Source of the DNA: Cystobacter fuscus
GTDB lineage: Bacteria > Myxococcota > Myxococcia > Myxococcales > Myxococcaceae
Assembly (NCBI RefSeq): GCF_002305875.1
Contig: NZ_CP022098.1
Span: 8,060,001-8,124,000 of the forward strand
Reading direction: 5' to 3'
DNA: 64,000 nucleotides
Positions 4,443 to 25,671 of this stretch are shown here, piece after piece. The notes under the pieces were generated by a model that was not told the DNA's origin, made no database searches, and saw nothing but the letters and a program-made list of their open reading frames with translations. How positions within the stretch are numbered: position 1 is the first letter of the stretch; the number at the start of each line of letters is the position of its first letter. Both the position numbers and the translations under genes were made by a program.

Positions 4443-5096
4443 CTATCGCCGGGCGCGCTTCGCGGCGGGAGCGCTCGGGCCCGGTGACGTGGCCAAGACC
4501 TCGGGAAGCGCCGCGAAGGTCTCGTCGACATATTCCGGCAGACTCTGGGACCCGTCCTCCGCCCACCTGCGCAGGGCCACATCCTGCGCGGCGATCGCCA
4601 CCGCGGCGGTGAGCTGCGCCAACTCCTTCTTGCCACGTCCGGCGCCCAGCCTCGCGGCCAGGATTCGCGCCAGGAGTGCCCTCCACTGCTCCCGGGTGTC
4701 GAGGAAGTGGGCCCGAAGCGAGGGGGTCTCGAGCAGGAATCGGAGGTAACTCCGGTTTTGCTCCGGATCGGAGATATAGGCCTCGTACACCGCATCCAGG
4801 GCCTTGCGCACCGCCAGCAGGGGCGGTTCGTCGGCGGGCCGGGCCTCCAGCGCGTCGCCGATCTGCTCGCTGCTGTAGCGCAACCGCCAGAGCACGACGT
4901 CTTCCTTCGTCTCGAAGTACCGGAAGAACGTCCGGCGTGAGATGCCCGCCGCCTCCGCGATGTCCTCGATGGTGGTCTCGGCGAACCCCCGCTCGACGAA
5001 CAGGTTGAGCGCCACCTCTCCGAGTTCCAGGCGGAGCAGGCGTTGCTTGCGCTCGCGCAGGTTTGGCTGCTCGGGGCTCTTGCTTCGCCCGTCCAT
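4443..5096 (-). CDS. TetR-family transcriptional regulator
   Basis: 217 residues. ATG 5096 has a good ribosome-binding site (GGAAGGGA) about 6 bases upstream. The N-terminal helix-turn-helix is clear (LNLFVERGFAETTIEDIAEA, then AGISRRTFFRYFETKEDV). The C-terminal ligand-binding half is unremarkable except for an Ala/Lys/Arg tail. It lies downstream of, and on the same strand as, an SDR-P450 operon, with 131 bp in between that carry an inverted repeat built from TGGCAC/GTGCCA half-sites. The same half-sites overlap the putative promoter of the SDR-P450 operon, so this protein is the likely repressor of that operon and possibly of itself. Confidence 0.9.
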   Translation of the reverse strand: MDGRSKSPEQPNLRERKQRLLRLELGEVALNLFVERGFAETTIEDIAEAAGISRRTFFRYFETKEDVVLWRLRYSSEQIGDALEARPADEPPLLAVRKALDAVYEAYISDPEQNRSYLRFLLETPSLRAHFLDTREQWRALLARILAARLGAGRGKKELAQLTAAVAIAAQDVALRRWAEDGSQSLPEYVDETFAALPEVLATSPGPSAPAAKRARR

Positions 5097-5152
5097 GATC
5101 GGTCCCTTCCTCGCCCCTCCCTGTAGCACGCCGTCCCCTCCGGGTGCACCAG

Positions 5153-5178
5153 GTGGCACCTCATGCCGACAGTGCCAC
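5153..5178. promoter_or_regulatory. Inverted repeat upstream of tetR, candidate TetR operator
   Basis: GTGGCAC (5153-5159) and GTGCCAC (5172-5178) are perfect 7-bp arms separated by 12 bp, just upstream of the TetR gene start at 5096. A further GGTGC at 5143 pairs with GCACC at 5156-5160. The half-site matches the one at 7558-7572 in front of the SDR-P450 operon. Confidence 0.45.
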
Positions 5179-5227
5179 TCCGCGCTACCCCTCGAACCCC
5201 TGGCGACCCATGGACGCGTCGACTCGC

Positions 5228-6655
5228 CTAGAACAGGACGGGAATGCGCGCGAAGCCGCGCAGACCAACGCCCGAGCCCACTCCGGCGCCCCATTTCAAC
5301 TGCTCCGCGGGGACCGCGAGCCGCAACTTCGGGTAGCGCCGGAACAGGGTCTCGAAGGCAATCTGCCCCTCGAGCCGGGCCAGGGGCGCGCCCAGGCAGA
5401 CATGGATGCCCTTGCCGAAGGCGATGTTCCGGTGAGCCTCGGGCCGCGTGATGTCATACACGTCCGGATCGGGGAAGCGCGAGGGATCCCGGTTGGCCGA
5501 GCCGAGACCGATCGACAGCTCCGTCTCCTGGGGGATGGAGACTCCACCCACCTGCGTGTCCGCGATGGCGGTGCGCGCCGTCCCGATGTAATCGACTGGA
5601 CCCCAGTAGCGCAGTGTCTCTTCCACCATTCCCTTGGCGAGCGAGGGGTCGGCCACCATGCGCGCGTGCTGGTCCGGGTGGGAGAACAACGCGACCACGC
5701 CATTGCCAATCAGGTTCACGGTCGTCAGGTGCCCGGCGAAGAAGAGGACGTGCACCATGGAGATCATCTCCTCATGGCCGAGCCTGTCTCCGTCCTCCTC
5801 CTGCGTATGGACCATCTGGCTGATCATGTCCTCGGCCGGCTCGCGCCGCTTGCGCTCGAACAACTCTTCCAGATAGGCGTTGAATCGCCGCGTCTGATCC
5901 CGCCGCGTCGCCGCCAGCGAGGCGTCGAACCGGTCGGTGTTCATGAGGAGCTCGGCCAGGTGGTTGATGCGCTCGCGGTCCTCCTCGGGAATGCCGAGCA
6001 GGTCGCTGATGACCGTGATGGGCATGGGATAGGCGAACGCCTCGAGCAGGTCCATCTGGCGATCCGGCGCCGCCTGTCCGCGCCCGGCGGCCTCGCGCTC
6101 GGCCTTGTCGAGCAAGGCGTCGGTGATGCGCTGGACGCGTGGCCGCAAGGTCTCCATGGCGCGGGCGGTGAAGCTCGGCTGGACGAGCTTGCGCAGGCGC
6201 GTGTGGTCGGGCGGGTCGCGCGAGATGAGGCTGTCGGCGAGGGGTCTGGCCTCCTCGGGCATGTGGGCCAGACCCTCGATCTGCCGGGGCGTCATCCCCG
6301 TGCGGAAGTCGGAGGACAGGCTCCCATCGAGGAGCGCGGCCACGGCCTCGTCATAGCGGGTGACGAGGAGCCGCTCCTCGCTCGAGGCGAGGTCCGCCGT
6401 GGAGCCCGCGCGGCTGTCCACTTTGCGGGTGTCCATGACTCCCCTGGCGAACAGGGTGCGCACCACGGGGGCCTGCTCGCGCAGGCGAGCGTAGGTGGCA
6501 TAGGCGGTGGTCAGGAACTCGGGATTCTCCCGGTCGAGGACCACGGAGCCACCGGAGGGAGCAGGTGCCTCCATCAGGTGTTTGAAAGGGCAAGTCCCCG
6601 CCGGGGACGGAACACCTTCCACGGTCTGCTTCTGGGATTCATCCATCGGCTTCAT
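5228..6655 (-). CDS. Cytochrome P450
   Basis: 475 residues. ATG 6655 has GGAGGGA about 6 bases upstream and lies 13 bp after the SDR stop codon, so the two are co-transcribed. Class-typical motifs are the ExxR (ETLR, 346-349) and the heme-binding loop FGKGIHVCLG with the Cys ligand at 420. The I-helix motif is AGHLTT (307-312). The acidic residue usually found before the conserved Thr (as in AGHETT) is a Leu, which may alter proton delivery. No signal peptide or membrane anchor is present, so it is a soluble bacterial monooxygenase that needs ferredoxin and reductase partners encoded elsewhere. The substrate is unknown; the SDR partner suggests sequential hydroxylation and oxidation of an alcohol. 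Confidence 0.93.
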   Translation of the reverse strand: MKPMDESQKQTVEGVPSPAGTCPFKHLMEAPAPSGGSVVLDRENPEFLTTAYATYARLREQAPVVRTLFARGVMDTRKVDSRAGSTADLASSEERLLVTRYDEAVAALLDGSLSSDFRTGMTPRQIEGLAHMPEEARPLADSLISRDPPDHTRLRKLVQPSFTARAMETLRPRVQRITDALLDKAEREAAGRGQAAPDRQMDLLEAFAYPMPITVISDLLGIPEEDRERINHLAELLMNTDRFDASLAATRRDQTRRFNAYLEELFERKRREPAEDMISQMVHTQEEDGDRLGHEEMISMVHVLFFAGHLTTVNLIGNGVVALFSHPDQHARMVADPSLAKGMVEETLRYWGPVDYIGTARTAIADTQVGGVSIPQETELSIGLGSANRDPSRFPDPDVYDITRPEAHRNIAFGKGIHVCLGAPLARLEGQIAFETLFRRYPKLRLAVPAEQLKWGAGVGSGVGLRGFARIPVLF

Positions 6656-6668
6656 CGTGTCCCTCCGC

Positions 6669-7487
6669 TCATTTGCCATCGGCCGCGCGGGAGAGTTCTT
6701 CCCACTGCGCCCAGGTTTCCAGACGTCTGGCGTACAGACCCTTGACGATGTCGACGGGCTGGCCGCCGAAGAGGACGCGCAGGGGTGGGTTCTGCGCATC
6801 CACGATGCGCAGGAGCGCGTTGGCGGCCCCCACGGGATCTCCGTAGGACGCGCCGCTCCGCCGAGCGGCCATGGCCTTGCGCAGGCCCTCATAGGCGTCG
6901 TTCTTCCTGGCGTGCACGGCGGAGCTTCCGCCCCAATCAGTGCTGAAGCCTCCAGGCTCGACAATCGTCACCTTGATGCCGAACCCGGCGCATTCCTGGG
7001 CCAGTGACTCGCTCATGCCCTCGAGCGCCCACTTGGACGCATGGTAGATGCCGAGCGAGGGGAAGGCGGCAACGCCACCGATGCTGGAGATCTGGATGAT
7101 GTGACCCGAACCCTGTTGGCGCATGAGCGCGACAGCGGCCTGGGTCACCCAGAGCGCACCGAAGAAGTTGGTCTCCATCTGGGCCCGGACCTCCTGCTCG
7201 GAGACCTCCTCGACGAACCCGAACTGCCCGTAGCCGGCATTGTTGACGACGATGTCCAGCCGGCCGAAATGCGCTGACGCCTCACGGAGGGCGGCCTCCG
7301 CGGCGGCCTTGTGGGTGACGTCGAGAGCCAGCGGGTAGATGGCTTTTCCGAACCGACCGACGAGGTCCGACAGGGAGTCGGCGTTCCGGGCCGTCGCGGC
7401 GACCCGGTCTCCACGCTCCAGGGCGGCCTTGACGAACTGGCGTCCAAATCCGCGAGAAGAGCCAGTAACGAACCATACCTTGCTCAT
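6669..7487 (-). CDS. Classical short-chain dehydrogenase/reductase
   Basis: 272 residues. ATG 7487 is preceded by AGGAGG at good spacing. It has the nucleotide-binding TGSSRGFG at residues 8-15, NNAG, the catalytic Ser in ISSIGG, and YHASK, so it is a complete classical SDR. It oxidises or reduces an alcohol/ketone with NAD(P). It is the first gene of the SDR-P450 operon. Its promoter region carries an inverted repeat that also occurs in front of the downstream TetR gene. Confidence 0.93.
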   Translation of the reverse strand: MSKVWFVTGSSRGFGRQFVKAALERGDRVAATARNADSLSDLVGRFGKAIYPLALDVTHKAAAEAALREASAHFGRLDIVVNNAGYGQFGFVEEVSEQEVRAQMETNFFGALWVTQAAVALMRQQGSGHIIQISSIGGVAAFPSLGIYHASKWALEGMSESLAQECAGFGIKVTIVEPGGFSTDWGGSSAVHARKNDAYEGLRKAMAARRSGASYGDPVGAANALLRIVDAQNPPLRVLFGGQPVDIVKGLYARRLETWAQWEELSRAADGK

Positions 7488-7542
7488 GCGTCACCCTCCT
7501 GGGGCTGAACACTCCGGACCCACGTGGCCTGGATGCAACGAC

Positions 7543-7573
7543 ATCCTATGTCGAATCTGGCACTTAGTGTCAA
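7543..7573 (-). promoter_or_regulatory. Candidate promoter and overlapping operator of the SDR-P450 operon
   Basis: On the minus strand TTGACA (7573-7568) is a perfect -35 element. Possible -10 elements are CATAGG at 17 bp spacing or TAGGAT at 19 bp, neither strong. The 15-bp dyad TGGCACTTAGTGTCA (7558-7572; arms TGGCACT and AGTGTCA, one mismatch) covers the -35. Binding of a TetR repressor here would block polymerase. Confidence 0.5.
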
Positions 7574-7773: not shown

Positions 7774-9171
7774 ATGCCCTCGTCGTTCCCCGCCCCTGCT
7801 CCGAAGCAGCCCCTCTCGCGCTCGTCCCAGCGTCCTGGTGCGCTCAAGCGCCTGTCCTGGTGGGCCTCGCTCGGACTGGGGCTCGCCGCCGCCGGCTGCG
7901 GTCCCACCGAGGACGAAAAGCCGGACTCCCCCGACTACACGCACCCCTTGGCCGAGAACACGCCCATCTGCGGGCGCTCCGACTTCAACGAGATGTTCCC
8001 CTACTCCATCCGCTCCACGACGCTTCCGGTGCTCGTGCACTACTACAAGGAGAGCGAGCGGGAGACGGCCCAGCAGGTGCTCGGCTTCGTCGAGAAGGGC
8101 TGGGACTACCACGTCAACCAGCTCGGCATGCGCCCGGCCATCACCGACGCTGGCGAGTGCGGGCCCGATGAGGCCTTCGACGTGTTCGTGTGGAAGGGGC
8201 ACCGCAGCTGTCTCGTCAACGTCCTGTCGGGCGAGCCCACCACGGCGTGGGATGACCGGCGCGGCTACATGATCGTCGACCCGTGGGGCCCCTACGGCGG
8301 TGTCGAGCTCGAGGAGACCGTCGTCCACGAGATGGCGCATGCCTCGCAGGCCGCGGACGACTGGTACGAGTCCCCCATCACCTTCGAGATGTCCGCGGTC
8401 TTCACGGATCAGGTGTACGCGAACCGCTACATCAAGACCTACTTCGACGACTTCCAGGCCCACCCCGACTGGGCGCTCGACTACTACGATGAGTACGAGA
8501 CCTGGTACATGTACGGCTCCTCCATGTACCTGCTCTACCTGAAGGATCGTTTCTTCGGGGGCGACGCGCGGTTCCTCTCGAGCATGTGGCTGAAGTCGCG
8601 CAACCCGCCGGGCGCGGGAGAGGATCAGACGCTCAACGAGCCGGACTTCGCCGATGCGCTCGACGAGCTGCTGGCCAGCCACGGCTCGAGCTACGTGCAG
8701 AGCGTCCCCGAGTTCTCGCGCTGGCGCTGGTACACGGGCGACCACGTGGACAACAAACACTTCCGTCACTTCAAGGACGGTCTGGAGAACCTCCAGGCGG
8801 CCAAAATCGCGCTGGCGGCCCAGCAGGAGGCCAGGCCGGGGAAGATCGACATCGGCGAGAACGCGCCGATGATGCTCGGCACGAGCTACCTCGAGCTGGC
8901 GGCCGGCGCGGGCACGCCGGGCACGCTCTATGTGTCACTCGAGGCCCCCAGCGACGCGTCGCGCCGCTTCATCGTCCAGGCCGTGCCCGGTCTGACGCCG
9001 GACTCCGATGGCGAGGTGCTGGATCTCTCCACGGGCCCGAAGGAGCTGAAGTTCGCGGGGGATCAGAAGCGCACCCTCATCGTCACCGTCGTGCCCACGG
9101 GTGATTACGACCCCGACCTGCGCACCGCGGATCGTCATCCCTTCTCGATCGTCCTCGCGGATCATCCGTAG
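7774..9171 (+). CDS. Putative zinc metallopeptidase-like lipoprotein
   Basis: 465 residues. The start at ATG 7774 is supported by AAAGGA 9 bases upstream and by the signal sequence it opens: a long basic n-region, a hydrophobic stretch at 27-40 and lipobox AAAGC with the lipidated Cys at 42. The motif HEMAHASQ (HExxH at 185-189) sits in a helix and is followed by a Glu at 205 (TFEMSA), the arrangement of gluzincin peptidases. The C-terminal ~130 residues look like a beta-rich domain. I do not recognise a named family. A surface protease that uses a lipid anchor fits the predatory lifestyle, but activity is inferred only from the motif. Confidence 0.75.
   Translation: MPSSFPAPAPKQPLSRSSQRPGALKRLSWWASLGLGLAAAGCGPTEDEKPDSPDYTHPLAENTPICGRSDFNEMFPYSIRSTTLPVLVHYYKESERETAQQVLGFVEKGWDYHVNQLGMRPAITDAGECGPDEAFDVFVWKGHRSCLVNVLSGEPTTAWDDRRGYMIVDPWGPYGGVELEETVVHEMAHASQAADDWYESPITFEMSAVFTDQVYANRYIKTYFDDFQAHPDWALDYYDEYETWYMYGSSMYLLYLKDRFFGGDARFLSSMWLKSRNPPGAGEDQTLNEPDFADALDELLASHGSSYVQSVPEFSRWRWYTGDHVDNKHFRHFKDGLENLQAAKIALAAQQEARPGKIDIGENAPMMLGTSYLELAAGAGTPGTLYVSLEAPSDASRRFIVQAVPGLTPDSDGEVLDLSTGPKELKFAGDQKRTLIVTVVPTGDYDPDLRTADRHPFSIVLADHP

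Positions 9172-24267: not shown

Positions 24268-25671
<1,404 letters not shown>

Follow-up and report, generated by a model that had tools for sequence, protein, structure and literature searches.

A TetR-family regulator with an MftR-type C-terminal domain and its predicted operators beside an SDR-P450 operon of Cystobacter fuscus

The window, by which we mean the whole 64,000-nucleotide (64-kb) stretch of Cystobacter fuscus DNA that was analysed (NZ_CP022098.1, positions 8,060,001 to 8,124,000), contains three genes that follow one another on the minus strand, namely an SDR-family oxidoreductase gene (7487-6669), a cytochrome P450 gene (6655-5228) and a gene for a TetR-family regulator (5096-4443). 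The SDR, product of the operon's first gene, matches Pfam adh_short and belongs to NCBIfam NF006114, the PRK08263 subfamily of SDRs, with 416 bits against a cut-off of 290. The gene divergent from it (7774-9171, plus strand) encodes a lipoprotein-like product and lies beside the operon, 95% identical, in a sister genome (G003) as well; the product contains HEMAH, which we take to be a HExxH metalloprotease-like motif. The P450 gene starts 13 bp past the SDR gene and runs to a stop codon at 5228-5230; its product is recognised by Pfam p450 (2e-31), has PikC and EryF as its best-scoring solved chains, and exceeds the curated cut-off of none of the nine listed NCBIfam named families, the top one being PentlenlactSyn with 214.7 of 700. 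Judged by their family assignments, the SDR and the P450 resemble an enzyme pair for tailoring or for degradative oxidation. The regulator, whose gene lies 131 bp beyond the P450 gene, is a TetR-family protein of 217 residues (TetR_N, 1.8e-15, 56.9 bits, cut-off 24) with the C-terminal domain of MftR (TetR_C_14, 1.1e-15, 57.9 bits, cut-off 22.7). Its recognition helix reads SRRTFFRYF, the adjacent arginines being R54 and R55, and its best-scoring solved chains are 2of7, 2rae and 8x0a, of which 8x0a was deposited under the title putative MftR and 2rae is named as the MftR of Rhodococcus jostii in the MftR paper (PMC8728441).

In front of the SDR-P450 operon, the first-pass annotation of this DNA had placed a dyad across a TTGACA element, and the overlap is indeed there. 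The element, a presumed -35 (7568-7573, minus strand) that is kept in the sister genome, is covered by TGGCACTTAGTGTCA at 7558-7572, which on the minus strand reads TGACACTAAGTGCCA (7572-7558), that is, TGACAC-TAA-GTGCCA. This predicted operator, A1, matches in sequence, over its full 15 bp, the operator type described for mycobacterial MftR (TGGCACTCGATGCCA). Directly past it, at an offset of 19 bp, lies a perfect dyad that was absent from the earlier annotation, the predicted operator A2 (7539-7553; CGACAT-AGG-ATGTCG on the minus strand), which sits over the presumed -10 and carries six of the eight motif letters (the fixed letters of TGNCA-N5-TGNCA) both here and in the sister genome. By eye that -10 is poor, being either CATAGG at 17 bp spacing or TAGGAT at 19 bp, and a promoter and terminator scan found nothing, with no sigma-70-like site at threshold before the SDR gene and no promoter for tetR. 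In the sister genome A1 becomes TGACACTATGTGCCA, which differs only in the centre, and A2 becomes CGGCATAGGATGACG, with two changes, one in each half-site, both at the third base, which the motif leaves free.

Ahead of tetR the earlier reading was of a GTGGCAC-N12-GTGCCAC dyad, proposed to be the same motif as that before the operon. The string exists (5153-5178, 57 bp ahead of the TetR start at 5096), and no GTGGCAC-N8..16-GTGCCAC of any spacing appeared in 100 shuffles of the window. As a shared dyad it does not stand in the form described, since no one dimer would read the 3-bp centre of A1 and a 12-bp centre alike; taken in the 6-3-6 register, the two promoters do share a motif, for a predicted operator B that is like A1 occupies 5154-5168 (CGGCAT-GAG-GTGCCA on the minus strand, 58-72 bp ahead of the TetR start), nested as a dyad (5168-5154) in the minus-strand sequence AGTGGCACTGTCGGCATGAGGTGCCACC. 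A degenerate neighbour, B' (5173-5187), lies 19 bp from B and has the right half GTGGCA, so that the N12 spacing is accounted for by arms that belong to separate operators at an offset of 19 bp, one arm lying in B and the other being the right half of B'. We rejected the N12 dyad itself as a site, its outer symmetry being broken in the sister genome (GTGGCAC..GTGCCGC) and the inner 6-3-6 dyad being kept. B carries seven of the eight motif letters in the window and six in the sister genome, where it reads CGGCATGAGGTGCCG with a change at the last base, a motif position, and B' there is TTGCACGGAGTGGCA, with seven of eight. Five distant relatives (L017, L018, L026, L162 and L163) have a complete site at B's own position of -72, aligned to residue 1, which favours autoregulation.

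A matrix made from 49 operators of other organisms, with the window and the sister genome excluded and 40 shuffled windows as background, ranks A1 first, B third and A2 fourth among all positions of the window. A1 scores 24.2 bits and has no equal in the shuffled windows, B scores 11.7 bits (about one expected per 64 kb and 0.002 per 134 bp) and A2 scores 7.4 bits (4.6 expected per 64 kb); in the 8.5 kb of the sister locus the matrix puts A1, B', B and A2, in that order, ahead of all other positions. The second rank in the window belongs to TGGCACTGAATGATA at 24369-24383, with 14.9 bits. Across the 12.3-Mb genome the pattern TGRCAY-N3-RTGYCA occurs at six places, as against one for the backward control, and because none of the other five has a tblastn match (E 1e-5) to the SDR, P450 or TetR within about 2.5 kb, we claim no wider regulon. 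A pattern search of the same genome for R-[TS]-FFRYF helices, a pattern blind to helices that have arginine at position 3 but differ at position 5 or 6, found two, that of the window's TetR and a TERTFFRYF at 1.24 Mb; a third TetR in the genome with an MftR-type C-terminal domain, at 2.42 Mb, has the helix SERTFYRYF.

The expectation that the dyads would persist in related genomes was borne out in the single close relative that has an orthologous locus: the sister genome keeps the whole operon (SDR 96%, P450 91% and TetR 92-93% identical), and A1, A2 and B with it. In a survey of 195 genomes of the phylum, with matches counted at E 1e-12 for the TetR and E 1e-75 for the SDR, 51 genomes have a TetR match and 11 an SDR match, and within these thresholds the two stand side by side in three (G000, G003 and G010). 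Within 1.5 kb of the other eight SDR relatives (L183-L190, 48-57% in tblastn) neither the TetR nor the P450 has a match. G010 arranges matters differently, with a TetR gene divergent from the SDR gene, both of them open frames (L019), one complete and two seven-of-eight sites between them, and behind the SDR a P450 remnant (L019:4027-4404) that matches only residues 181-254 and 440-475, without the haem-binding segment. Divergent pairs here and in L069, L075 and L095 suggest that the divergent layout is probably the older one. There is also a second group of P450s, 62-65% identical to that of the window (G000:C1:1956120-1957517 and L148-L154, from several related genomes); in the 7.5-8 kb covered at each of these eight loci neither the SDR nor the TetR has a match, and two of the loci, L148 and L150, have a second, distant P450 directly upstream.

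The motif is by no means confined to this locus. We scored the 250 bp before and the first 30 bp of each of 90 TetR genes (79 from named genomes, mostly actinobacteria, ten from related genomes, and that of the window), and a complete TGNCA-N5-TGNCA, with all eight fixed letters, is present in 45 of the 90 regions, the window itself having seven of eight, compared with a mean of 0.5 and a largest value of 2 over 20 rounds of shuffling. Other gaps from 0 to 15 gave, for the same 90 regions, 16 at gap 14, the gap that a tandem with a 19-bp offset produces, seven each at gaps 2 and 12, six at 13, five at 4 and at most one at any of the remainder. Spacing was counted in 178 loci, 85 of which hold 91 complete sites, with pairs of two complete sites entering twice; a second site of at least six letters lies at an offset of 19 bp in 31 cases, 18 in 13, 17 in 11, 16 in one and 20 in none. 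When at least seven letters are required, 19 is not the commonest offset (32, 11 cases; 22, nine; 18 and 19, eight each), and 22 and 32 are the spacings found in a group of TERTFFRYF proteins. These myxobacterial TetRs (L167, L170-L172, L174, L177-L182; also L024 and L025) have several TGTCAG..CTGACA-type sites upstream, for the most part spaced by about 22 and 32 bp, and in L024 (TERTFFRYF) and L025 (TERTFFRHF) the divergent neighbour, by eye a putative NAD-dependent epimerase, starts MRVFVTGASGFIGSAV.

Perhaps the most thought-provoking part of the analysis is the relation between this motif and the recognition helix. The rule, which was devised after seeing the 90-locus data, is that the site accompanies an arginine at helix position 3 (R3) with RY later on, and in that set a complete site precedes 44 of the 65 R3 genes versus one of the 25 others, or 56 of 65 versus two of 25 for at least seven letters. 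Three fresh sets followed. Among myxobacteria the complete site is found for 14 of 15 R3 proteins, 11 of which share the helix TERTFFRYF and are apparently close relatives of one another, versus one of six others (at least seven letters, 14 of 15 versus three of six); among genomes of the Nocardiopsis flavescens family it is found for 24 of 33 versus one of 28 (28 of 33 versus five of 28), the single protein among those 28 with a complete site having the helix SPRSLFRHF. The small PF17754 set (30 loci, helix read in 21, nine of those seen before) gave one of four versus one of eight, and two of four versus one of eight at seven letters, in only 12 new loci. Exceptions exist on both sides: L176 has SRSTFFRYF, without R3, and yet a perfect site, TGACACTTAGTGCCA, some 16 bp ahead of the point where the TetR start aligns, and in front of several R3 proteins no site is present. 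When the association is mapped on a FastTree tree of 173 proteins, it yields seven pairs, about 2.5 the same way and one opposite; so small a number of independent changes does not reach significance.

Position 2 of the helix adds a second relation, in that a basic residue there goes with pyrimidine and purine (Y..R) at the inner flanks in 28 of 28 complete sites (26 loci), and in 13 of 14 in the fresh set. We also tried a symmetric two-residue code, by which a non-basic position 2 would mean G..C; the first sets gave 29 G..C, six mixed and no Y..R, the fresh set gave six Y..R, three G..C and three mixed, and the symmetric form was rejected. The part of the flank rule that appears to survive is thus that a basic position 2 gives Y..R. 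Loci with only Y..R sites number 38 of 39 with a basic residue versus five of 43 without in the combined table, and on the FastTree tree five of five independent pairs run the same way in most pairings (p 0.0625). The window's helix leads one to expect Y..R sites, and A1, A2 and B are all Y..R. We would float, tentatively and with slightly more doubt than belief, the idea that two adjacent helix residues form a portable code in MftR-type TetRs, in which R3 would set TGNCA-N5-TGNCA and a basic position 2 the pyrimidine/purine inner flank, many promoters carrying, as A1/A2 do here, a pair of operators at an offset of about 19 bp, one for each of two neighbouring dimers. If true, sequence would suffice to predict the operators of many TetRs that have yet to be studied, and their autoregulation as well. 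No helix-to-operator rule for TetRs is announced in the titles and abstract openings among the literature matches listed, which lie mostly outside subscription journals, and of 128 matches to a search by sequence, none of the 15 listed has a title about such an operator; a second search by sequence gave no hit.

What, then, might the locus do? Our favoured reading, which we consider probable, is that one MftR-type TetR represses the SDR-P450 operon and itself, through A1/A2 and B respectively, until a ligand releases it. The protein encoded at 4443-5096 would bind the 15-bp TGNCA-Y-NNN-R-TGNCA as a dimer with some freedom at the outer bases, one dimer per operator, with probably a pair of adjacent dimers on the SDR promoter, where occupation of A1 and the tandem A2 across the presumed -35 and -10 would block RNA polymerase; B, with the degenerate B', would damp the regulator's own gene, and a small molecule on the C-terminal domain would release the TetR and so derepress SDR, P450 and repressor together. 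The proposal of the first-pass annotation that one regulator serves both promoters is, at the level of sequence comparison, well supported by the operator type, the helix, the conservation in the sister genome and the sites between the divergent genes of the third genome. Its further suggestion, an inducible detoxification or biosynthetic unit, is still no more than a guess.

The most serious competitor, to which we would still give only a minor share of belief, keeps repression through A1/A2, treats B as no working operator and has tetR read through from the P450 gene without autoregulation of its own. All three genes do lie on one strand, B keeps only six letters in the sister genome, and upstream of tetR the scan gave no promoter; against this, the external matrix puts B third both in the window and in the sister locus, the five distant relatives have their complete site at -72, and 131 bp separate the P450 gene from tetR. 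That the sites are owned by another regulator of the genome seems very improbable to us. TGNCA motifs are common to many TetRs, the proteins at 1.24 and 2.42 Mb are candidates and the genome pattern search does not cover R3 helices in which positions 5-6 hold V, L or Y, but the first of these candidates has a helix that pairs with G..C sites in its myxobacterial relatives, where A1, A2 and B are Y..R, both are non-basic at position 2, and the genome has no other R-[TS]-FFRYF helix. It is harder still to believe that the three sites are chance palindromes in GC-rich DNA: taken singly, sites as good as B and as A2 do turn up about once and 4.6 times, respectively, in 64 kb of shuffled sequence, but A1 went unmatched in the 40 shuffled windows, and each of the three sits within one of the two intergenic gaps that matter here and persists in the sister genome.

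The self-regulated circuit proposed here is an ordinary example of a familiar type, and the helix-operator relation is its more interesting by-product. For the locus itself, an orphan SDR-P450 pair is now tied to a specific candidate repressor and to exact operator positions, so that an inducer can be sought; beyond it, a helix-to-operator rule for this TetR subgroup would allow operators to be predicted for uncharacterised regulators. The rule has an experimental echo in the MftR paper, where the R48A mutant of the Mycobacterium smegmatis protein binds its operator tenfold more weakly (PMC8728441). By our own alignment R48 would be helix position 3, a placement obtained by counting along the M. 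frederiksbergense homologue (L191), with Q15, D16, D38 and R47 of the paper as reference points; that homologue has no full site before its own gene, the best having six of eight letters. In the LacI family (PMC2978694) a code was likewise drawn from local regulation, with two helix residues and two site bases co-varying at locally regulated genes; ours concerns another regulator family, only half of its flank rule held in the fresh test, and the association may reflect shared descent.

Another comparison is with the divergent SDR/TetR pairs L069, L075, L095 and L019 of actinobacteria and myxobacteria, whose SDR is 56-64% identical to that of the window, whose TetR is related and whose complete TGNCA-N5-TGNCA lies before the TetR gene on the SDR side, whereas in the window tetR is downstream on the same strand with the P450 gene in between. 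A close characterised system is M. smegmatis MftR, for which the published work reports a DNase I footprint containing TGGCACTCGATGCCA, the operator consensus T-N2-GGCA-N5-TGCC-N2-A, a location before mftA and long-chain acyl-CoA as ligand (PMC8728441). The window system is not MftR proper, since its TetR scores 120.9 bits against a TIGR03968 equivalog cut-off of 224.9 and the genome holds no mycofactocin radical-SAM gene (TIGR03962, the one gene of that pathway sought) over cut-off; unlike MftR, moreover, it adjoins an SDR-P450 pair. It has a predicted operator of 6-3-6 TGNCA layout near the gene it would control, as expected of an MftR-type TetR and seen here as sequence only, and it shares with the M. 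smegmatis protein the C-terminal domain, the arginine pair in the helix and a 6-3-6 operator upstream of the controlled operon, the MftR core TGGCAC-TCG-ATGCCA having the same 15-bp length and layout as A1 (PMC8728441).
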